From Sphingopyxis sp. KK2 (lineage in GTDB: Bacteria; Pseudomonadota; Alphaproteobacteria; Sphingomonadales; Sphingomonadaceae), in assembly GCF_001990265.1 (NCBI RefSeq), contig NZ_LYVN01000005.1, positions 1-64,000 on the forward strand: a stretch of DNA of 64,000 bases. Reading direction: 5' to 3'. How positions within the stretch are numbered: position 1 is the first letter of the stretch; each line of letters opens with the position of its first letter. This document shows positions 35,527 to 51,448 of the stretch, piece after piece. The translations under genes were made by a program, and so were the position numbers. The notes under the pieces were generated by a model. It was not told the origin of the DNA, did not search any database, and worked only from the letters and a program-made list of their open reading frames with translations.

Positions 35527-38520
35527 TCAGTCGAGCTTGAAGCGGAAGCCGACGCGGTACGTCCGTCCGAGCAGATCCGAGAAGCTGCTGTTCGCGGCCA
35601 GCCCGGTTTCGGGCAGGAGAAGCGGGTTGGCGTCGAACAGGTTGGTGACGTTGAAGAACAGTTCGGCTTCCGATGCGGTGCCGACCTTGATCTTCTGCGT
35701 AAGGTTGAGGTCGACGTAGAAGGTGCCCTTCACATGGTTGTCGGCATAGGTCGGGAACTGGCTGGACGATGTCGGGCACCCGCTGGTGCATTCGATCGCA
35801 TTGGCCAGATATTTGCCCGAGCTGACGCCGCGGCCGGTCACCGTGCCCGAGAAGCTCGGGGTCGAGTAATTCAGGTTGGCGCGGAAGATCCACTTGGGCG
35901 TGCTCGCCTGGCCGCCGTTCGCGCCCACCGTGTTCACCGGCGTCGTGCCGGCGATGCCGGTTTCTGCCAGATTCTCGATGTAACGGGTCGCGGTGCCCTT
36001 CAGCGTGATGCTGCTCGCCTCGCCCACGGGGATGCGATAGGCGGCGTCGAAGTCGATGCCGCGCACCAGCCGGCGCACATAGTTGAACGGCTGGGTACGG
36101 ATCAGCAGATAGGGCGTGGTCGGGGTCGAGCGAACCGGATCGGTGCTGATCGCGTCGCAGAAGGCCTGAACGCCTTCGTTGCAGCGGTTCACCACTTCCT
36201 GCGCGCTGATCGAGTCGATCGCATCCTCGAGATCGATGCGGAAATAATCGACCGACGCCTGGAAGCCCGGCAGGAAGCGCGGGGTCACCACGCCGCCGAT
36301 GTTCCACGAATCCGCCTTTTCGGGCTGGAGCGCCGGATTGCCCGTCGTCAGGCCCGAATAGGGGAAGAATTGCGGGCCATTGGCGAGGTCCGGGGTGAAG
36401 GCGGGGTTGCGCACCGAATCGCTGTTCGCGGTGCCGGCCTGGAACAGTTCGTTCAAATTGGGTGCGCGGATATCGCGCGAGCGCGTCACGCGCAGGCGGA
36501 TATCGTCGATCGGGGCCCAGGTCGCGCCGAGTTTCCACGTCGTGACATAGCCCGAGGTCGAATAGTCGGTCGCGCGCACCGCGCCGTTGAACTCGAGGCC
36601 GAACCCAAGCGGGATCAGCGTTTCGAGATAGGCTTCCTTCACATTATAGCTGCCCTTGAACGGCAGATAGTTGCCGACCGACCAGCGGTTCGACGTCGTC
36701 CCGTTGGGGTTGATGATCGGCTGGAACTCCGCCGGGACGGTACCGCGGATCTTTTCCTCGCGATATTCGCCGCCGATCGCGATGCTGACGTCGCCCGCCC
36801 AGGTGGCGAAGGGGGTCAGCGACAGGTTGGCGCCGGTGACATATTGTTCGAGCACCTGCTTGCGATAGGGGTCGCCGAGCACATAGTCGATCGCCGCCGG
36901 GTCGGCGACACCGATGCCCAGGCGGTTGAGCGGCACGCAGCTCGGGTCGTTGTTGGTGGTGTCGGCGTCGAGGTTGATCAGGCACTGGATCGACCCGACG
37001 GCATAGCCGCCGGCGTTGCCGGCCGGCGCGAAGGCGGCATTCGTCGCATTGGCCATCCTAGTGACGTGCATGATGTTGCGAAGCTGTTCGCGCACGTCCG
37101 AGCGGCCGTATTGACCGTAGATGTCCCAGCGTGCCGCCTTGCCGAACGCATCGAACTCGCCCTCGGCGCCGATGACATAGCGCTGGACCTGGCGCTTGTT
37201 GTTGATCCCGCGGAAGGGCAGGTCGGCGGCCGTCGTGGTGATGCTGACGCTGGTAACGCCGGCCAGGCGCGCGGCACCGAGCGTCTGCAGCGCGAAGGCG
37301 TTACAGGTGATCGGGGTCGGGACAACCGTACAGCCGGTGGTGTTGAGCGTCGCCGAACCGAGGTTCGGACCGGCGTTGAAGAAGACTTCCTGCTTGTTGA
37401 ACGAGCCTTCGGCGAACAGCGTGACGCCGTCAGAAACGTCGAAGCTGGCGCGGCCGTAGAAGCCGTAGCGGTCGTCCTTCGGCGCAAGGCCGATGCGACG
37501 GCCCGAATCGTTGAGACGCCAGTCGCCGCCGACGGTGCGGGTGACCGCCGCCGCGCCGCCGAGAACCGGCGAGTTGAACGAGCCATATTGATAGGGGATG
37601 ACTTGGCCATTCTGACCGAAATAGAGGCCGCGCAGTGAATTGGCGGTGGCCCCCGCCGAACCGGTGATGAAGCCGCCGGGTGCCTGGTTCGTCTGGCCGG
37701 CGTTCTGGTAGAAGGTGATGAAGGCCGGCTGGCCGTTGGTTGCGGTATAGGCGGGGTTGGCAAAGGCCAGATAGCCCTTGTGGTTCCACGGCCGATCTTT
37801 CGGGTCGACCTCGTAAATGCCGTCCTGATGCGCGATCTCTGCGTTGAAGACGACATGGCCGCGACCGTCGGCGAACGACTTGCCGCCCGCGATGCTGCCC
37901 GAATAGTTGAAGCCGTCGCCGACATGGGTGACGCCGATGTCGCCGGTGATCCGCAGCCCCTCAAGCTTCTTGTTGAGGATGAAGTTGACCACGCCGGTGA
38001 CGGCGTCCGAACCATAAGCCGAAGAGGCGCCGCCGGTGACCAGCTCGACGCGTTCGATCAGCGCCTGCGGGATCGTGTTGATGTCGACCCAGCCGAAGAT
38101 CGTCGACCCGACCGAGCGGCGACCGTCGATGAGGACGAGCACGCGGTTCTCACCGAGATTGCGCAGGTTGAGCGCGTTGACGCCCGCCGAACCGTTGGAG
38201 ATGTTGAGGCGCGAGTTCGCCGGCTTGGTCGAGCCCGCGAGTTGCGGCAGCTGGTTGACGAAGTCGGCGATATTGTTCGACGGCGAGGTGTTCTGGATAT
38301 CTTCCTGCGTCAGCACGATGACCGGGGTCGGCGCCTGGAACCCGTCGCGTGCGATGCGCGAACCGGTGACGACGATCTGGTCGCCGGATGCGGCTTCGCT
38401 GCTGTCGGCGGGCGCGGCGGCCTCCTGCGCGAGCGCGGGTGCGCTGTGCACGAGGGCCAGAGCCGTCATGGCGGCGCCGAAGCGGCCCAGCGGCCGGCGA
38501 ATTTGTCCAAAATCACGCAT
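35527..38520 (-). CDS. TonB-dependent receptor (large, oligopeptide/carbohydrate-type plug)
   Basis: This 997-residue receptor has a signal peptide (FGAAMTALALVHSAPALAQ), a TonB box (DQIVVTGSRI) and a plug with NISNGSAGVNALNLRNLG, VLVLIDGRRSV and LVTGGASSAYGSDAVTGVVNF. A long barrel ends in YRVGFRFKLD. The plug style (GSRI, NLRNLG, GASSAYGSDA) is common in receptors abundant in sphingomonads and xanthomonads, many of them for plant-derived or peptide ligands. The terminal residue is Asp after the aromatic zone, which is slightly unusual. Its ligand is unknown; it is divergent from the acylase gene. Confidence 0.95.
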   Translation of the reverse strand: MRDFGQIRRPLGRFGAAMTALALVHSAPALAQEAAAPADSSEAASGDQIVVTGSRIARDGFQAPTPVIVLTQEDIQNTSPSNNIADFVNQLPQLAGSTKPANSRLNISNGSAGVNALNLRNLGENRVLVLIDGRRSVGSTIFGWVDINTIPQALIERVELVTGGASSAYGSDAVTGVVNFILNKKLEGLRITGDIGVTHVGDGFNYSGSIAGGKSFADGRGHVVFNAEIAHQDGIYEVDPKDRPWNHKGYLAFANPAYTATNGQPAFITFYQNAGQTNQAPGGFITGSAGATANSLRGLYFGQNGQVIPYQYGSFNSPVLGGAAAVTRTVGGDWRLNDSGRRIGLAPKDDRYGFYGRASFDVSDGVTLFAEGSFNKQEVFFNAGPNLGSATLNTTGCTVVPTPITCNAFALQTLGAARLAGVTSVSITTTAADLPFRGINNKRQVQRYVIGAEGEFDAFGKAARWDIYGQYGRSDVREQLRNIMHVTRMANATNAAFAPAGNAGGYAVGSIQCLINLDADTTNNDPSCVPLNRLGIGVADPAAIDYVLGDPYRKQVLEQYVTGANLSLTPFATWAGDVSIAIGGEYREEKIRGTVPAEFQPIINPNGTTSNRWSVGNYLPFKGSYNVKEAYLETLIPLGFGLEFNGAVRATDYSTSGYVTTWKLGATWAPIDDIRLRVTRSRDIRAPNLNELFQAGTANSDSVRNPAFTPDLANGPQFFPYSGLTTGNPALQPEKADSWNIGGVVTPRFLPGFQASVDYFRIDLEDAIDSISAQEVVNRCNEGVQAFCDAISTDPVRSTPTTPYLLIRTQPFNYVRRLVRGIDFDAAYRIPVGEASSITLKGTATRYIENLAETGIAGTTPVNTVGANGGQASTPKWIFRANLNYSTPSFSGTVTGRGVSSGKYLANAIECTSGCPTSSSQFPTYADNHVKGTFYVDLNLTQKIKVGTASEAELFFNVTNLFDANPLLLPETGLAANSSFSDLLGRTYRVGFRFKLD

Positions 38521-38645: not shown

Positions 38646-38677
38646 TCTTATGTTTTTGGTGATAATCGTCCTGCCGG

Positions 38678-38835: not shown

Positions 38836-38854
38836 GGATAGCTTGCAGTTATAG
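38836..38854 (+). promoter_or_regulatory. putative LysR-type box (one half degenerate) upstream of acylase
   Basis: GGAT-N11-ATAG fits the T-N11-A core of LysR boxes. The 13 bases at 38848-38860, GTTATAGGCGGTG, are identical to 49675-49687 upstream of the N-acyl-D-amino-acid deacylase. The box ends 81 bases before the acylase start, close to the spacing at dgcN. Confidence 0.5.
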
Positions 38855-38935
38855 GCGGTGGCCCGCTTGCTATGGGTTGGCGGCACCGCGCTGCGATAGG
38901 GTCGGGGCTTGTCATCATTTTTCGGGGAGGCCCTG

Positions 38936-41314
38936 TTGATCCAGCGCCGTGCGTTCCTTCTGGCTTCCGCCGCGCTGGTCGCGATGCCGGCGAGCCTGCT
39001 GGCGAAACCGCAGGTCAAGGGCGCCACGACGGCGCGGCTGTCGGGCGCGCGGGCGCCGATCGAGGTCATCGAGGACGAGCTGGGCGTGCCGCATATCCGC
39101 GCGGCTTCGAAATATGACGCCTTTTTCGGGCAGGGCTATCTGGTCGCGCGCGACCGTTTGTTCCAGATCGACATGGAGCGTCGCCGCGACATGGGTCGCA
39201 TGGCCGAGGCTTTCGGCCCGCGCTTCGTCGCCGCCGACACGGCGGCGCGGCTCTTCCTCTATCGCGGCGACATCGACGCCGAGCTCGCGGCCATACCGCC
39301 CGAGGTACGCGAATGCGCCGAGGGCTATGTCGCGGGCGTCAACGCGCGCATCGACGAGCTGGCCGCCGATCCGTCGTTGCTGCCGCTCGAATATGGCATT
39401 TTGGGGATCAGCCCGCTGCGCTGGGACGTCCGCGACCTGGTGCGGGGCCGGGGTATCGGCATGGGCGACGCCGACGACGAGGTGCGCCGCGCGATGCTCC
39501 ACGCGCGCGGGCTGCTCGACGCCGACCTGCTGATGGCGCCGCTGCGTCCGGCCTGGTCGTTCACGGTGCCCGAAGGGCTCGACACCGCAGCGGTGAGCGA
39601 GGCCGACCTCGGCCTGCTCGACCCTGCCAATCGGCCGGGGGGCTTCGAGCCGCTGCAGGACGCCTGGTTCGACCCCGAGGCGCGCCGCGAAGACCGTTTT
39701 GCGCTCGGCAGCAACGCCTGGACGGTGGCGCCGTCGCGCACCGCGACGGGGCGCCCGATCCTCGCCAACGACCCGCACCTCGGCATCGGGCGGTCGAGCC
39801 CGCGCCACATGTGCCATTTGTCGGCTCCGGGGCTCGACGTGATCGGCGCGGGCGCGCCGGGGCTGCCCGGGATCATGCAGGGGCACACCGATCGCTTCGC
39901 TTTTGGCCGCACCAATTTCCACATCGACCAGAGCGATCTGTTCATCCTGCGCACCAAGGAGGGCGACCCCGGCCGCTACTGGCACAAGGGCGAATGGAAG
40001 GCGTTCGAGAGCTTCGAGGACGAGATTCTCGTCAAGGGCGCGCCGGCCGAGCGCGTGACTTTGCGCTATGCGGGCGGCCGCCCGATCGTGTCGGCGGATG
40101 CGGCGCGGAACCGCGCGGTCGCCTTTGCCGCCGTCGCGATGCTGCCCGGCGCCAATGCGCGCTTTGCGATGATCGCGATCAACCTGGCGACCGATTGGGC
40201 GTCGCTGCGCAAGGCGTTCAAGCTGCACGTCTCGCCGACCAATTTCCATTATGCCGATATCGACGGAAACACCGGTTGGCAGACGATCGGCTTTACCCCG
40301 CGTCGGCCGAAGCACGACGGGCTGTTCCCCGCGCCCGGCGACGGCGATTTCGACTGGGCGGGCATCCTGCCGGTCGAGGATATGCCGCACGTCTATAACC
40401 CGGCCGGAGGCTGGTTCGCCTCGGCCAACCAGATGAACCTGCCGAAGGATTATCCGTATCGCGAGCGGATCATCAGTTTTAGTTGGAGCGATCCCTTCCG
40501 CTACGATCGCTGCGCCGAAGTGCTGCGCGCGCAGCCCAAGCACCGGATCGAGGACAGCATCGCGCTCCAGCATGACGTCCAGTCGCTGCCGGCGCGGGCC
40601 CTCGTCAAGATGCTGCCCGCCGCGCCTTCGGCCGAAGCTGTCGAAGCGGCGGCGCTGCTCAAGCGCTGGGATTGCGGGATCGAGGCCGACAGCGGCGCGG
40701 CCTTGCTATACGAGATGGTGCTGCCCTTGCTGTCGACCGCGGTTTACGATCGCGTCGTGCCCGCCGCCGCGCGCGACCTGGTGACATCGCTCAACCTGGC
40801 CGAGATGTTGCGCATGCTGACGACGCTCGACAAGCGGCTCGGCGACAACCCCGCCGCAGCGCGCGATGCGCTGGTCGATGGCGCCTTGGTCGCGGGGTGG
40901 AAAAAGGCGGTCGAGGTCGGCGGGGCCGATCCGGCAAGCTGGCGCTGGGGCGACCTGCACCGGGTGACGATCGAGCATCCGCTCGCGGCGTCGAACCGCA
41001 AGATCGCGGAAGCCTTTCCGAAGATCATGGGCGGCCGTTCGGGCGGCGACTGGAACACGCCGATGGCACGCGGCTTCAACGCGCGGCGGACTTTCGACGT
41101 GTCGCACGGCGCGAGCTATTTGTTCGTCGCCGATGTCGGCGCGTGGGACAACAGCCGCTTCCTGCTGCTGCCCGGCCAGTCGGCCGATCCGCGCTCGCCG
41201 CGTTACCGCGACTTCTACCCGCTCTGGCTGGCGGGGACGATGCAGCCGCTCTGGTACAGCAAGGCGGCGGTCGACCGCCATGCCGCAGGGCGGCTGACGC
41301 TGACACCCGCTTAG
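38936..41314 (+). CDS. penicillin acylase family N-terminal nucleophile hydrolase, Tat-exported
   Basis: This 792-residue enzyme is of the penicillin/AHL/aculeacin acylase family. TTG 38936 is chosen as start because GGGGAGG ends five bases upstream. It gives a short basic leader, IQRRAFLLASAALVAMPAS, with a twin-arginine RRAFL motif and export to the periplasm. The mature chain should be cut before S259 in LGSNAWTVAP, the N-terminal nucleophile of the beta subunit, and LANDPHLGIG follows as in the family. It removes acyl groups from amides; substrates range from beta-lactams to N-acyl-homoserine lactones. It is convergent with the PBP4-type gene. Confidence 0.92.
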   Translation: MIQRRAFLLASAALVAMPASLLAKPQVKGATTARLSGARAPIEVIEDELGVPHIRAASKYDAFFGQGYLVARDRLFQIDMERRRDMGRMAEAFGPRFVAADTAARLFLYRGDIDAELAAIPPEVRECAEGYVAGVNARIDELAADPSLLPLEYGILGISPLRWDVRDLVRGRGIGMGDADDEVRRAMLHARGLLDADLLMAPLRPAWSFTVPEGLDTAAVSEADLGLLDPANRPGGFEPLQDAWFDPEARREDRFALGSNAWTVAPSRTATGRPILANDPHLGIGRSSPRHMCHLSAPGLDVIGAGAPGLPGIMQGHTDRFAFGRTNFHIDQSDLFILRTKEGDPGRYWHKGEWKAFESFEDEILVKGAPAERVTLRYAGGRPIVSADAARNRAVAFAAVAMLPGANARFAMIAINLATDWASLRKAFKLHVSPTNFHYADIDGNTGWQTIGFTPRRPKHDGLFPAPGDGDFDWAGILPVEDMPHVYNPAGGWFASANQMNLPKDYPYRERIISFSWSDPFRYDRCAEVLRAQPKHRIEDSIALQHDVQSLPARALVKMLPAAPSAEAVEAAALLKRWDCGIEADSGAALLYEMVLPLLSTAVYDRVVPAAARDLVTSLNLAEMLRMLTTLDKRLGDNPAAARDALVDGALVAGWKKAVEVGGADPASWRWGDLHRVTIEHPLAASNRKIAEAFPKIMGGRSGGDWNTPMARGFNARRTFDVSHGASYLFVADVGAWDNSRFLLLPGQSADPRSPRYRDFYPLWLAGTMQPLWYSKAAVDRHAAGRLTLTPA

Positions 41315-41323
41315 GGTGGGGGC

Positions 41324-42808
41324 CTAAAGCGCCTCTGCAATCGCGACCAGCGCGCGGTCGACGGCGGCGGTGGCCTGGCTGTCGCGTTCGTCAGGGATAT
41401 CGTTGGCTAGCACCGAGAAGATCAGGGTCTTGCCGCTGCGCGTGGTGAGATAGCCCGAGAGCGCGCGCGAGGCGTTGAGCGAGCCGGTCTTGGCGAAGAG
41501 CTTGCCCTCGAGGATCGTGCCCTTGAAGCGGTTCTGCAAGGTGCCGTCGCGGCCGGCGATCGGCAGCGTCTCGCGCCAGGCCATGGCCCACGGCTGGCGC
41601 GATATCCAGCTCAGCAGGCCAACAGCGCCGCGCGGCGAAATGCGGTTGTAGCTCGACATGCCCGACCCGTCGGCGAAGAAATATCCGGTCGCGGGGAGAC
41701 CCGCTTCGCCCATCACCTTGCGCATCACCGCCTGACCGTCGGCGATCGAGCCGCTGCCCGAGGCGCGCGACACGCGGCGCAGCATCAGTTCGGTGTGGAG
41801 ATTCTGGCTCTCCTTGTTGATGCGGATCATATTCTCGGCGAGCGACGGGGCGGGCAGTTCGGCGAGCATCGCGGGTTCGGCGGGCCATGCGGCGGGCGCG
41901 CCGTCGCGCGTCTTGGGATCGTCGGCGGCGGTCAGCGGCCGGTGGCGCGCGGCGATATCGCCATCGACCTTCACACCGCGTGCGCGCAGCAATTCGCCCA
42001 TCCGCCAGGCGGCATAATGCGCGGGGTCGTCGATGCCGTAGCGCAGCGTCATCGGGGCCGCCTCCGCACCGATGGTGCCGGTGAGGCGGAGGACGCGGCT
42101 GTTCGGCATGCGGTCGGCGGAGACCTTGTCTTCCTTGCCCGCGACGGTCGTGACGTGATTTTCGATGCTGTAGTAGCCCGAGGTTTGAACGGCCGGAGCG
42201 GCGCCGGGCGCGCCGGGGGCGAGCCTGACCACGAGCTCATTGTCGTCGAGCGTCAGCGCCGAAATGCCGGTGCCATAGCGCGACTGGATATTGTTCCAGC
42301 TCATCCCCGGGCTCCAGCGTTCGTCGGGAAACCAGCTGTCGTCGCCGACGATGTTGCGGACGTGGCGCGTTTTCGCCGCGACCGCATCGGCGAGCGTCTG
42401 GAGGCAGTCGGTCTTGCAGTCGTCGGCGCTGGAAAGCACCGCATCGCCGCGACCGTGGAGGATGACGTCGATGGCGCCGCCGGTTCCCGTTTCGAGTCTT
42501 ACGCCGGTCCCCTTGGCGGTCTGCTGAAGCAGGGGCAGTTCGGCATAGGCGATGGCGGTGGTGAACATCTTGGTGTTCGAGGCCGGGATGAAGCGCTGGT
42601 CGGGGGCGATCGACAGCAGCACTTCGCCGTCGAGCGTCGTTACGAGCAGGCCGTAGCGCGTGCCTTCGGGGCCGGTGGCGAGCGTGTGTTCGACCGTGGC
42701 GAGCAGCGGTGCGGTGGTGGTGGTCTGGGCCTGCGCCGTGGCAAGCGACAGCGCGAGGGCGGAGGCCAAAACCGTTGCGGGCGCGAAGCTCTTGATCGTC
42801 ATGTTCAT
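41324..42808 (-). CDS. dacB: D-alanyl-D-alanine carboxypeptidase/endopeptidase, PBP4 (S13) family
   Basis: This 494-residue serine peptidase has a signal peptide (LASALALSLATAQAQ), the S-x-x-K motif SNTK at 77-80, S-x-N in GSGMSSYNRIS, and the KTG box in LFAKTGSLNASRALSG. A long insert between the first two motifs is typical of S13 enzymes. It trims D-Ala from peptidoglycan stem peptides or cuts cross-links in the periplasm. It is the last gene of the dgcN operon, overlapping the beta-lactamase-fold gene by ATGA, which fits release of D-amino-acid-containing fragments. Confidence 0.93.
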   Translation of the reverse strand: MNMTIKSFAPATVLASALALSLATAQAQTTTTAPLLATVEHTLATGPEGTRYGLLVTTLDGEVLLSIAPDQRFIPASNTKMFTTAIAYAELPLLQQTAKGTGVRLETGTGGAIDVILHGRGDAVLSSADDCKTDCLQTLADAVAAKTRHVRNIVGDDSWFPDERWSPGMSWNNIQSRYGTGISALTLDDNELVVRLAPGAPGAAPAVQTSGYYSIENHVTTVAGKEDKVSADRMPNSRVLRLTGTIGAEAAPMTLRYGIDDPAHYAAWRMGELLRARGVKVDGDIAARHRPLTAADDPKTRDGAPAAWPAEPAMLAELPAPSLAENMIRINKESQNLHTELMLRRVSRASGSGSIADGQAVMRKVMGEAGLPATGYFFADGSGMSSYNRISPRGAVGLLSWISRQPWAMAWRETLPIAGRDGTLQNRFKGTILEGKLFAKTGSLNASRALSGYLTTRSGKTLIFSVLANDIPDERDSQATAAVDRALVAIAEAL

Positions 42809-43833
42809 CTGTCTGTCCGTTCGTCGCATGCGGTGATGAGGGCGTTGCCCGTGGCGGGGCGTAGCGCCACGATGCCGCTGTCGAAGTGGCGGGTCGGGTG
42901 GACCCGGTTGGTGAGCAGGGTCCAGGCAAGGCCGCGCTCGAAATCGAGCCACAGGCCGGTGCCGGTGAAGCCGGTGTGGCCGATGCTGTCGGCCGAACAG
43001 GTGTCGCCGCCGTGCCAGCCGGCGAAGGCGCGTTCCCAGCCGCAGGTCCGGTGATTCGCGCCCGCGGTGCGAACCTCGGCCATCATCGCGGGCGACAGCA
43101 TGTCGCCGCGCAGCATCGCGGCGGCGAAGCCCAGCACGCCGTCGACGGTGCCGAACAGCCCGGCATGACCCGGTGCGCCGCCGAGCGCAAAAGCGTTTTC
43201 GTCGTGGACTTCTCCCTTCATCACGCGGCCGCGCCAGCTGCAATTTTCGGTCGCGACGGCGGGGCCGGGGGGCGGGCCGAAACCGAGCCCTTCGCCGAGC
43301 GGCCAGGCGGAGAGCGGCGCGCCGGTGAGCCGTTCGATCGCGATGCCGAGGAGGATGAAGTTGATGTCCGAATAGACGGGCGGGCCGTGACGCCATTCGC
43401 GCTGGAGGACGAAAGCGCGCAGCCGCGCCGGATCGTCGCCATAGGTGTAGATGGGTTCGACCGCGGGCAAGAAGCTGCGGTGCATCAGGCAGTCGCGGAA
43501 GGTCAGCCGTCGCTCGGCGGCGTTCGCGACGTCATATTGGCGCAGGTCCGGAATCGCGTCGGTCAGCGGGCGATCGAGGTCGAGATGGCCCTGTTCGGCG
43601 AGGGTCAGGATAATCGTCGTCGTCGCGATCACCTTGCTGAGCGAGGCGAGGTCGAACCAATGGTCGCGGGTCAGCGTCTCGCGCTCGGGGACGAGCGCGG
43701 CCATGCCTATAAAGCGTATGGCATGATCGCCGCTGGCATCGACGACGCCGAGCGCCGCTCCGGGGATGCGGCCGCTTTCGACGGCTTCGAGGGCGGGCGC
43801 GAAACCCGCGTCGCAGATCGCCGCCAGCGTCAT
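42805..43833 (-). CDS. serine hydrolase, beta-lactamase/class C fold
   Basis: This 342-residue protein has the active-site SLSK (S64, K67) in FDLASLSKVIATTT, a YSDINFILLG segment at the Tyr-x-Asn position (here YSD), and HTGFTGTG as the KTG-equivalent box. No clear signal peptide is visible, so it may be cytoplasmic. Relatives are esterases, D-peptidases or amidases such as EstB and DD-peptidase-like AmpH; many lack beta-lactamase activity. It is coupled to AmpG upstream and PBP4 downstream by ATGA overlaps, pointing to hydrolysis of imported muropeptides. Confidence 0.88.
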   Translation of the reverse strand: MTLAAICDAGFAPALEAVESGRIPGAALGVVDASGDHAIRFIGMAALVPERETLTRDHWFDLASLSKVIATTTIILTLAEQGHLDLDRPLTDAIPDLRQYDVANAAERRLTFRDCLMHRSFLPAVEPIYTYGDDPARLRAFVLQREWRHGPPVYSDINFILLGIAIERLTGAPLSAWPLGEGLGFGPPPGPAVATENCSWRGRVMKGEVHDENAFALGGAPGHAGLFGTVDGVLGFAAAMLRGDMLSPAMMAEVRTAGANHRTCGWERAFAGWHGGDTCSADSIGHTGFTGTGLWLDFERGLAWTLLTNRVHPTRHFDSGIVALRPATGNALITACDERTDR

Positions 43834-45326
43834 GGCGTTGCGCGCGCCTTCACGCGGACAATGACGGGCAGCAGGAAGATCGCGGCGAAGCTGAGCGCGC
43901 CCGACAGCAGGAAAAAGCCGTCATAGCCGATCTGCGTCTGCATCGATCCCGACGCGCCCGCGAGCAGGCGCGGAAGCAGGAAAGCAAAGCCCGAGAGCAG
44001 GGCATATTGCGCGCCCGGATAGGTCGGGCTGACGAGCATCGAGAGATAGATGACGAACACCGCGCCCGCGAAGCCGTTGCCGAACTGGTCGACCGCGACC
44101 GAGGTGTAGAGGATGAAGGACGATGGCTCGCTATGCCACAGCCAGACATAGATCCAGTTGCCGAGCGCAGCTGTCACCGCGCCGATGCCGAGCGTCCAGC
44201 CGAGCGACAGCCGCGTCGACAGCCAGCCGCCGAGCGCGACCCCCGCCATGCTTGCCGACAGCGCGACGACGCCGTCGGCGACCCCGATCTGGTCGAGGCT
44301 GTAGCCTGCCTCGTTCCACAAGGGGTGCGACAGCGTCAGCGTCAGCACGTCGCCCATGCGATAGAGCGAGACGAAGGCGAGCACCGCGAGCACGGCATAG
44401 CCGTAGCGCCAGAAAATCTCGACATAGGCGGTGGCGAAGCCCGGCTTGCTGGTCAGCGCGGCGGCGGGCAGACGGTTGATGCGCGGCAATGCAAGCGCCA
44501 GCGCGACGAAGGGCAGCAGCGCGATGGCGAGGACGACGGGGGTGACGTTGCTCCTGGCCGAGATGCCGGCGCTTTCGGCGGCCGACAGGAGGAGCCAGCC
44601 GACCGCCGCCGTGGCGAGCGCCGCCGCGAGCAGGATGGCGAGGCTGGCGAGGGTGCCGCCGACCAGCGAGGTCAGGCGGCCGCGCGTGCCGGGCTGTTCG
44701 GGGCGCATCGCGGCGAGGATCGGAAAGGGCAGGAAGGCGGCGAAGGCGATGACGAGATAGGCGATCGTCCAGTCGGCGCGCGCCGCGACGAGGATCGCGC
44801 CGCTGCCCGCCGCGACCATCGCGCTGCGATAGCCCCACAGGTTCGCGGCAACGATCGGCGCCTGTTCGGCCTGCGTCGGCGCGAGCTCGATGCGCCAGCC
44901 GTCGGCGGCGACCTCCAATGTGGTCGTCCAGAAGGCGAGCAGGATCGCGAACAGCGCGGTGAGCGGCAGGCTCTTGTCGTTCGATGTGAAGGCCATGGCG
45001 ACCATCGCGGTGAAGATGCCGAGCTGCGACAGCATGATCCAGCCGCGCCGCCGGCCCCAGAAGCGCGCGAAACCCGGCACGTCATATTTCTCGACCAGCG
45101 GCGCCCAAGCGAATTTGAAGGTCGGGAGCAGCGCGATCCAGGCGAAGAAGCCGATGATGACGATGTCGACGCCATGCTTCGACAGGCGCAGCGTGAGCAC
45201 CGCGTTGAACATGTAGAAGGGCAGGCCGGCGGCGAAGCCGAGCAGCAGGTAGAGGCCGAACAGGCGGCGTGCGGAGGGCCTGGCTGGGAGGTCCCGTTCG
45301 CCGACAGGGACGGCGTTTGCCGTCAT
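43830..45326 (-). CDS. ampG: MFS permease, AmpG-like muropeptide transporter
   Basis: This 498-residue membrane protein has about 12-14 hydrophobic segments, starting with RRLFGLYLLLGFAAGLPFYMFNAVLTLRL. The pattern FAAGLPF, then FKFAWAPLVEKYDVPGFARFWGRRRGW, is characteristic of AmpG/signal-transducer-type permeases. These import anhydromuropeptides from the periplasm for recycling. It is coupled to the symporter gene upstream and the serine hydrolase downstream, which supports a recycling role. The ligand could also be a related D-peptide. Confidence 0.9.
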   Translation of the reverse strand: MTANAVPVGERDLPARPSARRLFGLYLLLGFAAGLPFYMFNAVLTLRLSKHGVDIVIIGFFAWIALLPTFKFAWAPLVEKYDVPGFARFWGRRRGWIMLSQLGIFTAMVAMAFTSNDKSLPLTALFAILLAFWTTTLEVAADGWRIELAPTQAEQAPIVAANLWGYRSAMVAAGSGAILVAARADWTIAYLVIAFAAFLPFPILAAMRPEQPGTRGRLTSLVGGTLASLAILLAAALATAAVGWLLLSAAESAGISARSNVTPVVLAIALLPFVALALALPRINRLPAAALTSKPGFATAYVEIFWRYGYAVLAVLAFVSLYRMGDVLTLTLSHPLWNEAGYSLDQIGVADGVVALSASMAGVALGGWLSTRLSLGWTLGIGAVTAALGNWIYVWLWHSEPSSFILYTSVAVDQFGNGFAGAVFVIYLSMLVSPTYPGAQYALLSGFAFLLPRLLAGASGSMQTQIGYDGFFLLSGALSFAAIFLLPVIVRVKARATP

Positions 45327-46576
45327 CGCGCCGGTTCCGCCTCGGCGGACGGTGCATCGACCGCCTTTTCCCAGCGCGCGACGGTGCTGGTGACGGTGAG
45401 GTTGGCGCTCGCGCTGGCGACGGTGCGCGTCATGTCGAGGAGGCGGTCGAAGGGCAGGACGAAGCCGACGACGAGCGCGGTCTGTTCTGCCGACACGCCG
45501 ACCGCCGAGAGCACCGCAGCGAGCATGAACAGCGAGGCCGACGGGATCGGCGCGGTGCCGAAGGCGGCGAGGGCGCCGGTGAGCAGGACGATAGCGAGCA
45601 TCTGGAGGTCGGGTTCGACCCCTACCGCCTGCAGCGCGAAGATGCTGAGCAGGCCGACATACATGGCGGTGCCGTCCTTGCCGATGCTCGCGCCGATGGG
45701 CAGCACGGTCTTGGCGACGCCGGGGGCGATCTTGAGATCCTCGAGCGCGATGCGCAGCGCGACGGGCAGGGTGGCGGCCGACGAAGCGGTCGAGAAGGCG
45801 ACCGCGAGCGCATCGACGATCGTGCGATAGAAGGCCAGAACCGGCCGCCGCGCGACGAGGGCGAGCAGCGGCACATGCACGATCAGGATCTGGAGCAGCA
45901 CCCCGGCAGCGACCCCGACCGCGAGCCAGCCGATATTGGCGAAGACCGCGACGCCGTTATCGGCGACCGCCTTGGCGATCAGCGCGAGGACGCCGAAGGG
46001 GGTGACTTCCATGACGATGCGCACGACGTGGAACAGCGCCTTGCCCGCCGATTGCAGGAGGTCGGCCATCGGCTTTCCCTCGTCGCCGGCGAGGATAACG
46101 CCGAAGCCGAAGAGGATCGAGAAGAAGATGATCGCGAGCATGTCGCCGTCGACGAGCGACTGGACGATGTTGGTCGGGATGATGCCGACAAGCTGGTCGT
46201 GGAGCGACTTGGGGTCGCCGAGCGCATGCGGGACCGCGCCGGCGAGCGCGGCGCCCTTGCCGGGTTCGAGCAGCAGGCCCACGAGGATGCCGATCGACAC
46301 CGCGAAGAAGGTCGTCGCCGCGAACAGCCCGACGGTGCGCGCGCCGACCGACCCCAGCTTGCGCGGGTCGGCGAGCGCGGTGACACCCGAGGCGATGCTG
46401 ATGAAGACGATCGGGACGACGAGCATCCGGATCAGCCGGACGAAAAGTTCGCCGACAATCGCGATGGCTTCGCTGGCGGCGGGCCAGACGAGCCCCAGCA
46501 TCACGCCGATCGCCAGCGCGCCGAGCACCCTTTGCCATAGCGGCACCGCGACCCAGCGGCGAAGCATCGTCGTCAT
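45323..46576 (-). CDS. dicarboxylate/amino acid:cation symporter (DAACS, GltP/DctA family)
   Basis: This 417-residue transporter has about eight membrane helices and the two re-entrant loops. FSTASSAATLPVAL is the serine-rich loop, IGASIGKDGTAMYVGL and FGTAPIPSASLFML form the substrate and ion site. The family imports glutamate, aspartate or C4-dicarboxylates with Na+ or H+. The conserved PSA in the second loop fits. It follows the dgcA-like gene by 22 bases and should supply glutamate, including perhaps the D-isomer. The ATG at 46576 has a purine-rich AAGGGGGG box. Confidence 0.92.
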   Translation of the reverse strand: MTTMLRRWVAVPLWQRVLGALAIGVMLGLVWPAASEAIAIVGELFVRLIRMLVVPIVFISIASGVTALADPRKLGSVGARTVGLFAATTFFAVSIGILVGLLLEPGKGAALAGAVPHALGDPKSLHDQLVGIIPTNIVQSLVDGDMLAIIFFSILFGFGVILAGDEGKPMADLLQSAGKALFHVVRIVMEVTPFGVLALIAKAVADNGVAVFANIGWLAVGVAAGVLLQILIVHVPLLALVARRPVLAFYRTIVDALAVAFSTASSAATLPVALRIALEDLKIAPGVAKTVLPIGASIGKDGTAMYVGLLSIFALQAVGVEPDLQMLAIVLLTGALAAFGTAPIPSASLFMLAAVLSAVGVSAEQTALVVGFVLPFDRLLDMTRTVASASANLTVTSTVARWEKAVDAPSAEAEPAR

Positions 46577-46598
46577 TCCCCCCTTGGCCCCGATCCCG

Positions 46599-47591
46599 TC
46601 AAAGGCCGCCCCAGAAACCGGGCTGCGGCGGCGACATGATGCCATGCGCCGCGCGGACCCCGCCCGCGCGATCCTCGGCAAGCCAGAGCGGTCCGTCAAG
46701 ATCGACGAAGCTGCTTTGTGCAGCGATCGCCCAGGCGGGGGCGATCGACAGCGACGAACAGATCATGCAGCCGGTCATCACGCCCAGCCCGCGTTCGCGC
46801 GCGGCGCGGGCGAGATCGAGCGCGGCGGTGAGGCCGCCGGTCTTGTCGAGCTTGATGTTCACGACGCCATAGCCGTCGGGCAGCGTGCCCAAATCGGCGG
46901 CGACATGCACCGCTTCGTCGCCGGCAATCGGGATCGCCGAGCGGAAGCCGCGCAGATCGTCGTCGGCGTCGGCGGGCAGCGGCTGTTCGAGCAGGTCGAT
47001 GCGCAGTTCGATCAACAGGTCCTGGAGGCCCCGCACTTCTGCAATGGTCCAGCTTTCATTGGGATCGACGATCATCTTCGGGTTCGGCGCCGCGGCGCGG
47101 ACGGCCTTGATCTGCGCGGCGGGGTCGTTGCGGTCGACCTTGACCTTGAGCAGCGGGGCGTCGGCGAGCGCGGCGGCAGCCGCCGCCATACGATCGGGGG
47201 TATCGAGGCTGATCGTCATCGCGGTGACGATCGGGCGCAACGGCTTTTCGAGCCCCAGCGCGGTCGCGATATCGCTTCCGGCGAGGCGCAGTTCGAGGTC
47301 CCACAGCGCGCAGTCGATCGCATTGCGCGCGGCGCCGGCGGGCATCAGGTCGAGCAGATCGTGCCGGGTCGCGCCCGCTTCGACCGCGCCGCGCGCCGCC
47401 TCGATCGCGAGCACCGTGCTTTCGGCATTTTCGCCGTAACGCGGATAAGGCACGCATTCGCCGCGCCCGGTGACGCCGTCCTGCGCGATCGCGACGGTCA
47501 CGACCTGCGCCGCGGTCTTCACCCCGCGCGAGATGCGAAAGGGTGTGTGGAGCGGCAGAATCTCGCCGAATGTCGTCAGGCTGCGCGTCAT
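46599..47591 (-). CDS. dgcA: enolase-superfamily epimerase: N-acetyl-D-glutamate racemase DgcA or L-Ala-D/L-Glu epimerase
   Basis: This 330-residue protein of the mandelate racemase/muconate-lactonising group has the KVK motif (LLKVKVD) holding the first catalytic lysine. Metal ligands lie in IVDPNES, LLEQPL and AGDEAV, and the second lysine region is VNIKLDKTGG. Members are annotated as dipeptide epimerases (YcjG), but those paired with a DUF1611 protein work as DgcA, racemising N-acetyl-D-glutamate to the L form. The DUF1611 gene lies ten bases upstream, so DgcA is favoured. Both reactions concern D-Glu. Confidence 0.9.
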   Translation of the reverse strand: MTRSLTTFGEILPLHTPFRISRGVKTAAQVVTVAIAQDGVTGRGECVPYPRYGENAESTVLAIEAARGAVEAGATRHDLLDLMPAGAARNAIDCALWDLELRLAGSDIATALGLEKPLRPIVTAMTISLDTPDRMAAAAAALADAPLLKVKVDRNDPAAQIKAVRAAAPNPKMIVDPNESWTIAEVRGLQDLLIELRIDLLEQPLPADADDDLRGFRSAIPIAGDEAVHVAADLGTLPDGYGVVNIKLDKTGGLTAALDLARAARERGLGVMTGCMICSSLSIAPAWAIAAQSSFVDLDGPLWLAEDRAGGVRAAHGIMSPPQPGFWGGL

Positions 47592-47601
47592 ATCGGCAGC
47601 G

Positions 47602-48636
47602 TCAGGCGGTTTCGGCGACGCTGGGTGCGGCCGTTTCGGTTTCGAGCAGCCGGTCGAGGATCGCCTCGACCCCGAAGCGATAGGGGTCGCTCGTCGGCAG
47701 GCCATATTCGGCCTCGACCTCGGCGCACAGCGCGCGCGCATCGGCTTCGGCCATCGCCGAGGTGTTGAGCGCGATGCCCACGACGCGGACATCGGCGTTG
47801 GTCAGGCGCGCCGCGGCCAGATTGGCCTCGATCGTCGGGGCGATGCCGGGCAGCGGATAATGCGGCAGGCCGCGCATATGCGGGCGCACCGGATCATGGC
47901 ACAGCACGAGCGCATCGGGCTGGGCGCCGTGGAGCAGGCCCGTCGAGACGCCCGCAAAGGAGGGGTGATAGAGCGAACCCTGCCCCTCGATCAGGTCCCA
48001 GCCGCCATCGTCGCGTGCAGGCGAGACCTGTTCGATCGCGCCCGAGATGAAGTCGGCGACCACGGCGTCGAGGGGGACGCCGTCGCCCGCGACGAGGATG
48101 CCCGTCTGTCCGGTGGCGCGGAAATCGGCCTTCACGCCGCGCTGCTGGAGCGCGCTCGCGAGGCAGAGCGTCGTGTACATCTTGCCCACCGAGCAATCGG
48201 TGCCGACGGTGAGGAGGCGCTTGCCCGCGCGCTTCTTGCCGTTGCCGATCGGAATGTCGGGACGCGGGTCGCGGACATCGTGGAGCTGGCGGCCGAGCCG
48301 CGCGGCGGTTTCGACCAGCCGCGGTTCGGCATTGAGCCGATGGTGTAGCCCCGACGCGATGTCGAGCCCGGCCTCCATCGCCGCAAGCGCATCGACGATC
48401 AACGCTTCGCCGAGCTTGCCCCCGGCATTGGCGATGCCGAGCACCAGCGTGCGCGCACCGGCGGCGTGCGCGGCGGCGAAATCGAGGCGCGGCAGGTCGA
48501 GCGTCAGCGGGCAATCGTCGTGGCGAAATTCGCCGACGCAGATGTCGGGCCGGAACACCGCGAGCCCGCGCGAGGTCTTGATGTCGGCGGGGTCGCTCGA
48601 ATGGCCGAGGTAGAGAAGATAGGGCGTTTCGATCAT
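47602..48636 (-). CDS. dgcN: DgcN-type (DUF1611) D-glutamate N-acetyltransferase
   Basis: This 344-residue protein has the DUF1611 two-part layout. The N-terminal Rossmann-like part contains ARTLVLGIANAGGKL; the C-terminal P-loop-like part has LLTVGTDCSVGKMYTTLCLASAL and DLIEGQGSLYHPSFAGVSTGLLHGAQPD. Characterised members (DgcN) acetylate D-glutamate before racemisation by DgcA. The adjoining epimerase and symporter fit that route. A LysR-type box lies 80 bases upstream of its start, overlapping the 3' end of the LysR gene. It is the first structural gene of the operon. Confidence 0.87.
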   Translation of the reverse strand: MIETPYLLYLGHSSDPADIKTSRGLAVFRPDICVGEFRHDDCPLTLDLPRLDFAAAHAAGARTLVLGIANAGGKLGEALIVDALAAMEAGLDIASGLHHRLNAEPRLVETAARLGRQLHDVRDPRPDIPIGNGKKRAGKRLLTVGTDCSVGKMYTTLCLASALQQRGVKADFRATGQTGILVAGDGVPLDAVVADFISGAIEQVSPARDDGGWDLIEGQGSLYHPSFAGVSTGLLHGAQPDALVLCHDPVRPHMRGLPHYPLPGIAPTIEANLAAARLTNADVRVVGIALNTSAMAEADARALCAEVEAEYGLPTSDPYRFGVEAILDRLLETETAAPSVAETA

Positions 48637-48716
48637 GGGTCAGGAACCTGCGTGATAAGAAAGGGGCGACAATATCCTCACCGGCGGCGCGACCCCAATA
48701 TCTAGCGCCCGCTATC

Positions 48717-48735
48717 CTATAACCGAGCGCTATAG
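48717..48735 (-). promoter_or_regulatory. LysR-type box upstream of dgcN
   Basis: On the minus strand, CTATA-N9-TATAG is a perfect dyad with the T-N11-A spacing of LysR boxes, reading CTATAGCGCTCGGTTATAG then G. It shares TCGGTTATAGG and CTAT at identical spacing with the site at 49663-49681. The box overlaps the last six bases of the LysR gene and ends 80 bases before the dgcN start. Confidence 0.7.
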
Positions 48736-49614
48736 TCCTTCGATCACGGTCGCGAGCACTTCGAGGAAGGCCGAGGCGGTTCGCGATGGCGGACGGTTCT
48801 GCAGATAGACGGCGTTGATGTCGAAGGTGATCGCGGGCTGCAGCGGGCGGCTCACCAGCCCGGGCGGCAGCGCGGCATGGGCAGTGAAATTGTCGACGAT
48901 CGCCATGCCGACGCCGGCGCCGACGAGCGCGGCCGCGACATAATAGGTCCGCGCCGACACCACCTCGTCGAGCACGACTTCGAGGCGGTTGAGTTCGCTC
49001 GATAGCATCCGGCCGATCGGGCCGCTTTGCGCGGGGCTGATGACCTTGTGCCCGCATAATTCGTCGAGCCGCACGCGCGCCGGCGCGCCGGGCATGTCGT
49101 CCTCGCGATAGATGACGACCAGCTCGCCTTCGCCGATGACCTGGTGCGCGACCGGCGCCGACAGCGGGACCTCGAAGCTGATCGCGATGTCGGTTTCATG
49201 CTCGTAGAGCTTGCGGACCATCTCGTCGTGATGGAGCGTCTGGAGGTCGAACATGACATTCTCATGCTCGCCGAGGAAGCGCGACACCGCCTCGGGGATC
49301 GCGCCGAGGCCGAGCGAGGGGAGCGCCGAGATGCGAAGCAGCCCGCCGCGTCCGTGGCGCAAATTCTGGCACGCCTGGCGCAGCGAGCGCACGCGGTCCT
49401 GGATGTCCGACACTTCGGCGAACAGGGTATGCGCGTCCTGCGTCGGGATCAGCCGGCCCTTCGACCGTTCGAACAGGGTCAGGCCGATCGAGCGTTCGGC
49501 GTGGCGCAGCACCTTGGTCACCGACGGCTGCGACACGTTGAGCGACCGCGCCGCGGCGCTGACGGTGCCGTGGAGGAAGACGGCGTGGAAGATCTCGATC
49601 TGGCGCAGGTTCAT
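48730..49614 (-). CDS. LysR family transcriptional regulator
   Basis: This 294-residue regulator has the N-terminal winged helix-turn-helix with FLHGTVSAAARSLNVSQPSVTKVLRH, the coiled linker, and a periplasmic-binding-like effector domain (LLRISALPSLGLGAIPEAVSRFL and VVIYREDDM). LysR regulators usually activate a divergent or downstream gene when a pathway molecule binds. Here it is divergent from an N-acyl-D-amino-acid deacylase and upstream of dgcN on the same strand. Matching boxes are found in front of both. D-Glu or N-acetyl-D-Glu would be a natural effector, but this is inference. Confidence 0.92.
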   Translation of the reverse strand: MNLRQIEIFHAVFLHGTVSAAARSLNVSQPSVTKVLRHAERSIGLTLFERSKGRLIPTQDAHTLFAEVSDIQDRVRSLRQACQNLRHGRGGLLRISALPSLGLGAIPEAVSRFLGEHENVMFDLQTLHHDEMVRKLYEHETDIAISFEVPLSAPVAHQVIGEGELVVIYREDDMPGAPARVRLDELCGHKVISPAQSGPIGRMLSSELNRLEVVLDEVVSARTYYVAAALVGAGVGMAIVDNFTAHAALPPGLVSRPLQPAITFDINAVYLQNRPPSRTASAFLEVLATVIEGL

Positions 49615-49662
49615 GCGGTGGGGCCTTGCAGTCGTGGCCCGAATTGGCGGCCGTCGGGCTCT

Positions 49663-49681
49663 CTATGCCATTCGGTTATAG
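49663..49681 (+). promoter_or_regulatory. LysR-type box between LysR and deacylase genes
   Basis: CTAT-N11-ATAG followed by GG (core TCGGTTATAGG) lies 49 bases before the LysR start on one side and 108 bases before the deacylase start on the other. It could serve both autoregulation and activation. It matches the dgcN box at the same internal spacing. Confidence 0.7.
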
Positions 49682-49789
49682 GCGGTGCAACAACGCTGGC
49701 TAGACGCGGTATGGACTGGGGAGCCATTCTCGTTGCCGAAGCGCTGGTCCGCACCTTATGCCGGGCGCCGCTGTTGAAGGATTTCGCCG

Positions 49790-51448
49790 ATGACCCTGCC
49801 GCCTGCTCCGCGCCATGTCCGCTGGACGATCGCATCGCTGTCGGCGACGGCGGCGCTGGCCGTCGGCGCCTTCTGGGTGGCGGGCGCGGCGGCAAAGCCC
49901 GACGAGGCGGTCGATGTCATCATCCGCGGCGGCACCATCTATGACGGCGGCGAAGGCGCACCCTATGTCGGCGATGTCGCGATCCGCGGCGACCGGATCG
50001 TGCATGTCGGACCGGCGGGCGGCTATTCGGCACCGCGGGTGATCGACGCCAAGGGCATGATCGTCGCGCCGGGGTTCATCGATCCGCATACCCACGCCGA
50101 CAGCTTCATCCGCTCGCCCGACAAGGCGGTGCGCGTCAACGCGGCCTGGCTGACGCAGGGGGTGAGCAGCGTCGTCATCGGTGTCGACGGGTCGGGAACG
50201 CCCGATGTCGCCGCCGACGCAGCCAAGCTTGCCGGGTCGGGGATCGGCACCAATGTCGCGCTTTTCGTCGGCTTCGGTTCGGTGCGCCAGCGCGTGCTCG
50301 GCCAGGATGCCCGCGCGCCCAGCGCCGCAGAGCTCGACCGGATGAAGGCGCTGGTCGCAAATGGCATGTGCGAAGGCGCACTCGGGCTTTCAACGGGCCT
50401 CTTTTATGCTCCGCAAAGCTTTGCCAGGACCGACGAGGTCGTGGCGGTGGCGCGCGAGGCGGCAAAGCGAGGCGGGCTGTACGACACCCACCAGCGCGAC
50501 GAATCGAGTTACAACATCGGGCTGCTCGGATCGGTCGAGGAAGCGATCGAGATCGGCCGGCAGGCGGGCATGCCCGTCCATTTCGCGCATCTGAAGGCGC
50601 TCGGCGTCGACGTCCATGGCCAGGCCGGGGCGGTGATCGCGGCGATCGACGCCGCGCGTGCGGCGGGGGTCGAGGTCACCGCCGACCAATATCCCTGGCT
50701 GGCATCGGGATCGAGCCTCGATGCGTCGCTGCTGCCGCGCTGGGCGGTCGATGGCGGCGGCGCTGCGCTGCTGAAGCGGCTTGACGATCCGGCGACGCTG
50801 GCGCGGATTCGCGAGGAGATGGCCGACAATCTGCGGCGGCGGGGCGGGGCGAGCGCGCTGCTGCTGATCGCGCAGGGCTTTCCCTGGACCGGCCAGACGC
50901 TGGAGCAGGTCGCCGAGACGTGGAAGCTCGACCCGCGCGATGCCGCGCTGCGCATCATCCGCCAGAGCGTCGAGGCGAAAGGCAGCGAAGCGAAACGCGG
51001 CGGCGCGTCGGTCGCATCGTTCAACATGGCGCAGGCCGACGTCGACCTGCTGATGAAGCAGCCGTGGATGGTGACCTCGTCGGACGGGTCCGACGGCCAT
51101 CCGCGCATGTTCGCGACCTTCCCCGAAAAATATCTGCGCTATGTGCGCGAGCGGAAGGTCATCGACCTTACGACCTTCATCCGCCAGTCGACGGGGCGCA
51201 CCGCCGACATCTACAAGATCGACCGGCGCGGCTATTTGCGCCCGGGCTATTTCGCCGACGTGCTTGTCTTCGATCCCGAGCAATTTGCGCCGCGCGCCGA
51301 CTATCTGCATCCGCGCGAGCTGAGCGTCGGGGTCCGGAAATTGTTTGTCAACGGCGTGCTGGCGGTCGAAGACGGCCGCACGACCGGGATGACCGCGGGG
51401 CGCGCCTTGCTGCGGTCCTGTCCGGGCGGATGCCCGGCAAAGTCCTGA
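49790..51448 (+). CDS. N-acyl-D-amino-acid deacylase family amidohydrolase
   Basis: This 552-residue amidohydrolase has an N-terminal hydrophobic leader (WTIASLSATAALAVGAFWVAGAAA), so it is exported or anchored. The metal site begins with GFIDPHTHAD and continues with His in DTHQRDES and VHFAHLKALG, and Asp in SSDGSDGHPR. The domain order and TAGRALL end match D-aminoacylases. It releases acyl groups from N-acyl-D-amino acids, producing free D-amino acids that DgcN could use. It is divergent from the LysR gene and carries a LysR-type box. Confidence 0.88.
   Translation: MTLPPAPRHVRWTIASLSATAALAVGAFWVAGAAAKPDEAVDVIIRGGTIYDGGEGAPYVGDVAIRGDRIVHVGPAGGYSAPRVIDAKGMIVAPGFIDPHTHADSFIRSPDKAVRVNAAWLTQGVSSVVIGVDGSGTPDVAADAAKLAGSGIGTNVALFVGFGSVRQRVLGQDARAPSAAELDRMKALVANGMCEGALGLSTGLFYAPQSFARTDEVVAVAREAAKRGGLYDTHQRDESSYNIGLLGSVEEAIEIGRQAGMPVHFAHLKALGVDVHGQAGAVIAAIDAARAAGVEVTADQYPWLASGSSLDASLLPRWAVDGGGAALLKRLDDPATLARIREEMADNLRRRGGASALLLIAQGFPWTGQTLEQVAETWKLDPRDAALRIIRQSVEAKGSEAKRGGASVASFNMAQADVDLLMKQPWMVTSSDGSDGHPRMFATFPEKYLRYVRERKVIDLTTFIRQSTGRTADIYKIDRRGYLRPGYFADVLVFDPEQFAPRADYLHPRELSVGVRKLFVNGVLAVEDGRTTGMTAGRALLRSCPGGCPAKS

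Follow-up and report, generated by a model that had tools for sequence, protein, structure and literature searches.

Passages of PMC11747546 name both enzyme steps of DgcN and DgcA, passages of PMC10845958 name the DgcN-DgcA route from D-glutamate (D-Glu) to L-Glu, and dgcN appears in part of PMC12363236 as the key gene of a D-Glu racemisation pathway. Here we describe a locus of Sphingopyxis sp. KK2 in which these two functions are predicted to be joined to the uptake and cleavage of cell-wall fragments. The window, by which we mean the whole 64,000-nucleotide (nt) stretch analysed (contig NZ_LYVN01000005.1, positions 1 to 64,000 of the forward strand), carries a putative six-gene operon encoding DgcN-like and DgcA-like enzymes, a symporter, an AmpG-like permease, a serine hydrolase of the S12 beta-lactamase fold and a PBP4-type peptidase. 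We consider it probable, at roughly 0.7, that this locus is under regulation and serves the catabolism of peptidoglycan-derived material, namely muropeptides and D-Glu-containing peptides. This reading is based on matches to curated models, recurrence of the same genes in shuffled order, genes for N-acetylmuramic acid (MurNAc) and N-acetylglucosamine (GlcNAc) in several relatives, and the position of the S12 gene near AnmK outside the order Sphingomonadales.

Each of the closest described systems shares part of this arrangement. As in the DgcN-DgcA pathway, both enzymes score above their NCBI models and their genes are adjacent; unlike that pathway, the window adds the AmpG-like, S12 and PBP4 proteins within the operon, with D-amino-acid-type acylases and a TonB receptor alongside. 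The MurNAc operon of Escherichia coli also includes an S12-fold protein, YfeW, encoded directly after murQ-murP, but MurQ was not found in the window's genome, the transporter is AmpG-like rather than of the phosphotransferase system, a D-Glu branch is added, and the cut-off for YfeW is failed. The NamZ/NagZ/AmiE cluster of Bacillus subtilis is a comparable system. AmpG-dependent peptidoglycan recycling, as in E. coli and in Caulobacter, whose gene set is given in a section of PMC13046382, likewise pairs an AmpG-family permease with a DD-peptidase; in contrast, the window has a divergent AmpG-like protein beside another that is above cut-off, AnmK and MurQ were not found, and D-Glu is predicted to be degraded. 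A Klebsiella pneumoniae plasmid (NZ_CP141856.1) carries dgcN (57.5% identical) and dgcA with a glutathione-type peptide ATP-binding cassette (ABC) transporter and P1 and M55 peptidases, a lysR gene close by and a box-like site ~100 nt before dgcN. There, too, DgcN and DgcA are joined to peptide import and peptidases, although an ABC transporter takes the place of AmpG and the symporter, and the peptidases are different. Microcystin degradation also involves a beta-lactamase-fold peptidase, MlrB, and a transporter, MlrD; a link was sought through PF07364 in 10 genomes without a match, but controls were equally silent and the result carries no weight, and we found no open-licence paper joining mlrB, mlrD and AmpG.

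The initial annotation knew of no described unit with this combination, and we found no open-licence paper on it either, in a search that did not extend to subscription papers or to other wordings. Catabolism by DgcN/DgcA, AmpG recycling and MurQ catabolism have each been described; what appears to be new is their combination into a locus that would use muropeptides and carries a D-Glu branch.

Layout of the operon and curated models

Six closely spaced open reading frames (ORFs) occupy positions 41324-48636, all on the minus strand, as had been annotated.

41324..42808, minus strand: PBP4-type S13 D-Ala-D-Ala carboxypeptidase/endopeptidase with a signal-like N terminus (PF02113, TIGR00666)
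42805..43833, minus strand: S12 beta-lactamase-fold serine hydrolase, probably cytoplasmic (PF00144)
43830..45326, minus strand: AmpG-like permease of the major facilitator superfamily (TIGR00901)
45323..46576, minus strand: SDF-family dicarboxylate/amino acid symporter, predicted D-Glu importer (PF00375, E 7.9e-99)
46599..47591, minus strand: dgcA-like gene of the enolase superfamily, predicted N-acetyl-D-Glu racemase (NF042940)
47602..48636, minus strand: dgcN-like gene (DUF1611), predicted D-Glu N-acetyltransferase (NF041892, PF07755, PF17396)

The junctions had been described as mostly ATGA overlaps. This holds for three of the five (symporter/AmpG-like, AmpG-like/beta-lactamase-fold and beta-lactamase-fold/PBP4), whereas dgcN and dgcA are separated by a 10-nt gap (47592-47601) and dgcA and the symporter gene by 22 nt, with the starts of dgcA (47591) and the symporter gene (46576) chosen manually, each lying downstream of the earliest possible start codon. 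Terminator-like sites between 38500 and 50000 numbered 8, against 5.8 expected.

Curated models bear out most of the initial gene assignments. DgcN scores 515.8 bits with NF041892 (cut-off 480) and aligns with PDB entry 7xrj over residues 1-330 (E 5.7e-108), while DgcA scores 429.5 bits with NF042940 (cut-off 400) and contains the motifs KVK, DPNE, KLDKTGG and DLDG; both therefore stand above NCBI equivalog cut-offs. The glutamate/dicarboxylate symporter belongs, as proposed, to the SDF family, and matches the DctA, GltP and SstT models, all under their cut-offs. The beta-lactamase-fold hydrolase is confirmed by PF00144 (E 1.7e-34, 119.9 bits against a cut-off of 27) and the PBP4-type peptidase by TIGR00666 (207.8 bits against 107.8). 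S12 hydrolases carry SxxK and Y-x-N/D motifs, found here as SLSK at residue 64 and YSD at 154; the SxxK, SxN and KTG motifs of the S13 family to which PBP4 belongs appear as SNTK at 77, SYN at 386 and KTG at 440. The permease resembles AmpG chains in the PDB (E 3.2e-29 to 3.3e-23) and is predicted to import intact muropeptides.

The same genome encodes a second dgcN paralogue, 52% identical (G000:C27:22231-23223; positions 6507-7493 of stretch L084). Near it lie genes for members of the TonB-receptor, beta-lactamase-fold (two) and M19-dipeptidase families, and this neighbourhood is possibly another D-Glu-peptide locus.

Recurrence of the gene set in Sphingomonadales

The locus is larger than these six genes and goes beyond the initial annotation. 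Upstream it takes in a lysR gene (48730-49614) and an amidohydrolase resembling D-aminoacylase; past the other end of the operon lie the genes for an acylase resembling D-succinylase and for a TonB receptor, and a shared box is present as well. The additional hydrolase and uptake genes fit the D-amino-acid theme.

35527..38520, minus strand: TonB-dependent receptor, adjoining the acylase gene (PF00593, PF07715)
38909..41314, plus strand: N-terminal nucleophile (Ntn) acylase of the penicillin acylase family, D-succinylase-like, convergent with the operon end (PF01804)
48730..49614, minus strand: LysR-type regulator, upstream of dgcN (PF00126, PF03466)
49790..51448, plus strand: amidohydrolase resembling D-aminoacylase and N-acyl-D-Glu deacylase, with an N-terminal signal or membrane anchor, divergent from lysR (PDB matches)

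Relatives of these genes were defined by tblastn at E ≤1e-15. Flanks measured ~10-12 kb or less and several stretches end at contig ends, so counts affected by absences are lower bounds and counts of arrangements are inflated; the genome search scores a few best candidates per genome, and its negatives may include misses. Of 296 genomes of the order, 106 gave a match to dgcN, 30 to the AmpG-like gene and 33 to the S12 gene. By hand count, 28 of the 30 ampG genomes, the window's included, also had a dgcN match, and in these 28 the two genes share a contig in 24 and lie within 21 kb in 22.

We then compared neighbourhoods drawn from either end of the gene set. The dgcN-drawn set consisted, among the matches listed, of the 50 highest-ranked places besides the window's own, plus 10 hand-picked lower down. 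In the 36 highest-ranked stretches, which belong to the window's family and represent one genome each, dgcN is accompanied by lysR (35), dgcA (35), the amidohydrolase (32), the symporter (26), TonB (26), pbp4 (21), the S12 gene (16), ampG (15) and the acylase (13). The 24 lower-ranked places retain dgcA in 21, lysR and the amidohydrolase in 6 each, M19 in 4, and TonB and a second-type S12 gene in one each; pbp4, ampG, the window-type S12 gene, the symporter and the acylase were found in none of the 24. The S12-drawn set comprised the best 80 of 566 loci, of which 76 carry Sphingomonadales taxa in their record titles and 4 only Proteobacteria or Alphaproteobacteria. Here the partners are ampG (75), pbp4 (67), the amidohydrolase (61), the symporter (52), dgcA (50), TonB (49), the acylase (48), dgcN (45), lysR (42) and murQ (15), arranged in 34 gene-order strings, a count that truncated stretches push up. 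The two sets overlap in genomes and are not independent.

The pairing of dgcN with ampG exceeds chance, given the 22 of 28 genomes in which they are no more than 21 kb apart. What speaks most strongly for a shared function is that these partners keep reappearing in varying order.

Sugar genes and the S12 hydrolase

Genes for amino sugar metabolism adjoin the set in some relatives. On a Sphingobium yanoikuyae plasmid, genes for a BadF-family kinase, the D-lactate dehydrogenase Dld, NagA, a SIS protein, MurQ and GntR stand directly before those for AmpG and the S12 hydrolase, and are followed by a second S12 gene, PBP4, acylase, TonB, amidohydrolase, LysR, dgcN, dgcA and symporter; the AmpG-like protein encoded there scores 319.6 with TIGR00901, under the cut-off of 350. 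MurQ releases D-lactate and GlcNAc-6-phosphate, which explains the D-lactate dehydrogenase beside it. MurQ and some of the sugar companions occur in eight further stretches (L049, L057, L114-L118, L129). Strong MurQ matches were obtained in 16 of 32 genomes (from 34 with an AmpG-like or S12 gene, G201 and G241 being left out), and in nine of these 16, by hand count, no more than ~12 kb separates MurQ from ampG or dgcN; eight further weak matches (best E ~1e-4, low identity, short) were not counted.

Outside the order, 13 genomes of the class have an S12 gene (E ≤1e-80); the same stretch encodes AnmK in 12 of them, part of a peptide ABC transporter in 7 and MurQ in 5. AnmK is also present in all three Hyphomicrobiales plasmid stretches with S12 that could be scored. 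Most S12 genes outside Sphingomonadales (L131, L132, L134, L218-L230) stand beside AnmK, often with a peptide ABC transporter, and this set is a candidate muropeptide import operon of Hyphomicrobiales and other alphaproteobacteria.

These neighbours bear on the S12 hydrolase, whose fold alone names no substrate, since its predicted model (mean pLDDT, or predicted local distance difference test, 78) matches many kinds of enzyme: the nearest solved chains, at Z 25.1-26.9, are an acyltransferase, esterases, a D-amino acid amidase and class C beta-lactamases. The PBP4B/YfeW model NF002968 is its best NCBIfam match, yet the score of 74.3 is far under the cut-off of 385; with E. coli YfeW it shares 28% identity (84 of 303 columns) and a VHDE...GHAGLF block. 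In a simple hydropathy scan its N terminus showed no clear signal-peptide-like stretch, with a value of 1.5, like cytoplasmic DgcA, and the protein is therefore probably cytoplasmic. Its gene directly follows ampG (gap ≤150 nt) in 75 of the 80 loci. In B. subtilis, AmiE is a MurNAc-L-Ala amidase of the S12 fold. From this precedent, the linkage to AnmK and MurQ and the place of yfeW in its operon, we propose that the hydrolase would cleave imported MurNAc-peptides in the cytoplasm; the linkage to AnmK and MurQ suggests that it may be a MurNAc-L-Ala amidase of the AmiE type.

A LysR regulator and a shared box

Three putative sites resembling LysR-type boxes were found around the operon.

48717..48735, no strand assigned: LysR-type box before dgcN, CTATAGCGCTCGGTTATAG on the minus strand, a putative site overlapping the lysR stop codon
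49663..49681, no strand assigned: second box, in the gap between the divergent lysR and amidohydrolase genes
38836..38854, no strand assigned: weaker box-like site before the acylase gene, matching at 10 of 12 positions

The gap before dgcN and that between lysR and the amidohydrolase gene have in common CTATAACCGA-N5-ATAG. The exact box pattern has only two matches in the 4.34-Mb genome, both flanking lysR, and the centre of the one in front of the operon lies ~90 nt before the dgcN start. The box was first read from the window and relaxed at positions 6 and 14 once relatives had been seen. In this relaxed form, CTATAR-N7-YTATAG (12 scored positions, score at least 10, no more than 200 nt upstream, window excluded from the counts), it precedes dgcN in 27 of 37 loci of relatives, against 2 of 207 control ORFs, and the acylase gene in 7 of 12 relatives. 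Elsewhere it was found before the amidohydrolase gene in 6 of 40, lysR in 2 of 36, the symporter gene in 2 of 30 and pbp4 in 1 of 21, and before neither TonB (0 of 23) nor dgcA (0 of 36). Box centres in relatives fall 65-102 nt before the dgcN start codon, mostly at 85-95 with a second group at 65-74. This distribution supports a single, predicted LysR-controlled promoter for the window operon and a second putative target at the acylase gene.

Flanking hydrolases and the remainder of the window

In the simple hydropathy scan the N termini of PBP4, the amidohydrolase and the acylase look signal-like, scoring 1.9-2.4. The amidohydrolase is related to D-aminoacylase (E 2.5e-63), N-acyl-D-Glu deacylase 3gip (6.2e-49) and the carbohydrate de-N-acetylase OngB (4.2e-47). 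The acylase exceeds PF01804 (584.3 bits against a cut-off of 21.3); its best solved relative is D-succinylase (PDB 7eby, E 1.6e-145, residues 15-800), and its Ser268, in the sequence GSNAW, aligns to residue 1 of the beta-chain. D-succinylase acts on D-amino acids, according to a portion of PMC11241749.

Directly after the D-aminoacylase-like gene lies an amidohydrolase-family ORF of 680 residues with a long extra N-terminal part (51543-53585); another genome of the genus (L086) carries an 87% identical copy close to a distant dgcN. Further along, 53638-56622 encodes a LuxR-type response regulator and, convergently, a 7TM-DISM histidine-kinase-like protein, and 56782-62928 a 2048-residue ORF with an autotransporter beta-domain and a passenger repeat. 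On the other side of the locus, the ORFs scanned between 2428 and 35374 look catabolic and include an E1 dehydrogenase, a flavin adenine dinucleotide (FAD) oxidoreductase, a Rieske oxygenase, a P450, a coenzyme A (CoA) ligase, an old-yellow-enzyme type protein and a second TonB receptor.

Proposed route and alternatives

Gene order, protein families, the conserved box and the recurrent linkage are observed; in the route that we envisage, substrates, transport steps, LysR binding and regulation are all inferred. Peptidoglycan fragments would cross the outer membrane through the TonB receptor, and in the periplasm PBP4 would remove D-Ala or cleave cross-links, while the hydrolases related to D-aminoacylase and D-succinylase would release D-amino acids, D-Glu among them. 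D-Glu would enter the cytoplasm through the SDF symporter and larger fragments through the AmpG-like permease, the latter to be cut by the cytoplasmic S12 hydrolase, most likely at the MurNAc-L-Ala bond or at a peptide bond. DgcN would then acetylate D-Glu and DgcA racemise the product to N-acetyl-L-Glu. LysR would act through the box before dgcN, and hence on the six-gene operon, through the box in the lysR/amidohydrolase gap and probably through that before the acylase gene. Stripping of peptidoglycan fragments or D-peptides to feed D-Glu into metabolism, as the initial annotation proposed, is supported by comparative evidence from curated models, recurrence and MurNAc-gene neighbours.

Several results weigh against this picture. 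MurQ gave no match in the window's genome (320 contigs, 99.98% complete), with a query that works in relatives, AnmK was not found there with controls positive, and no BadF kinase scored above cut-off; MurNAc use is therefore not supported in this genome, where only the peptide half is evident, and any muropeptides that enter would not have their sugar consumed in this way. The permease matches TIGR00901, in keeping with its annotation as AmpG-like, but at 310.2 bits it falls short of the family cut-off of 350, and another AmpG, above that cut-off at 411 bits, is encoded on a different contig. With PRK09061, a model for N-acyl-D-amino-acid deacylase, the flanking amidohydrolase scores 174.2, under the cut-off of 340, and its Asp133 aligns to a metal-binding Cys of D-aminoacylase 1rjp. 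D-succinylase recognises the L-isomer too, as stated in part of a review (PMC7431475). All six genes are present in 33 of the 80 S12-drawn stretches, many of which end at contig ends, and the window's order from lysR to pbp4 is kept in 10. Many relatives have ampG and the S12 gene running in the direction opposite to dgcN. Joint transcription is therefore no general feature, and the operon describes a subset of loci; the box before dgcN supports the joint control initially suggested for the window, but such control does not extend to relatives in general. Neither ampG (0 of 15) nor the S12 gene (0 of 17) is preceded by a box, even at score 9. Genome-wide, at up to two mismatches, the box has 5 matches against 24 for the reversed control and is not enriched, so its evidence consists of the exact pair and its conservation. 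A scan of 38500-50000 for sigma-70-type sites found 0, with 0.8 expected.

Some of these results would suit other explanations. The locus might serve N-acylated D-amino acids, D-residue lipopeptides and peptide antibiotics generally, rather than the cell wall, with the AmpG-like protein as a D-peptide importer. We judge this unlikely: the permease score under the family cut-off, the failure to find MurQ and AnmK in this genome, and the kinship of the flanking hydrolases to D-aminoacylase and D-succinylase, both enzymes of N-acyl-D-amino acids and their nearest solved structures, point that way, but PBP4 in 67 of the best 80 loci, the MurQ, NagA and BadF kinase genes that adjoin the locus in some relatives, and the S12 gene near AnmK outside the order point to the wall. 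A comparably low probability attaches to DgcA being mainly an L-Ala-D/L-Glu epimerase of the murein dipeptide, with DgcN acting on another substrate. DgcA scores 317.2 with the epimerase model PRK15129, close to but under its cut-off of 343, and may on that account have such activity; it shares the DLDG motif with the E. coli epimerase chain 1jpd, and in Mariluticola a DgcA above cut-off (451.9) is encoded near AnmK and a peptide ABC transporter in a stretch with no dgcN annotated. Against this, the window's protein passes the DgcA model, and dgcA is found in 35 of the 36 stretches with a dgcN orthologue.

Recycling of the cell's own wall turnover products, as opposed to foreign scavenging, seems less probable still. 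AmpG and PBP4 relatives belong to ordinary wall turnover, and as AnmK and MurQ were not found here, peptide-only recycling is possible; yet the genes are accessory in distribution (ampG in 30 and dgcN in 106 of the 296 genomes of the order), an AmpG above cut-off is encoded elsewhere in the genome, a TonB receptor accompanies 26 of the 36 dgcN stretches, the Sphingobium set is on a plasmid, and DgcN and DgcA would use up the D-Glu that recycling would give back to the wall. That chance or drift brought the six genes together and they share no function is very improbable and largely refuted by linkage: only 10 of the best 80 loci keep the exact order, but the same genes occur in 34 order strings among them, if an inflated number, and the dgcN-ampG pairing within 21 kb recurs in 22 of 28 genomes.

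A bolder extension of the reading that we favour, a regulated locus for peptidoglycan-derived material, is possible but doubtful. In this form, sphingomonads would carry an outer-membrane-to-cytoplasm locus for foreign peptidoglycan whose one LysR regulator responds to D-Glu as a signal and whose ampG and S12 genes form a separate import-and-cleave module. The S12 protein would be a cytoplasmic MurNAc-L-Ala amidase replacing AmpD, used across Alphaproteobacteria with AnmK, and the sugar branch would have been dropped in lineages such as that of the window.

Peptidoglycan supplies organic nitrogen that decays slowly, and D-Glu counts among its signature residues. The locus offers a concrete substrate source for DgcN and DgcA and suggests what an S12 family found in company with AnmK and MurQ might do; the box sequence can be used to find further members. 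If the favoured reading is true, a locus that brings fragment uptake, the cleavage of peptides and the conversion of D-Glu under a single regulator would account for the way in which some bacteria feed on the walls of dead neighbours.

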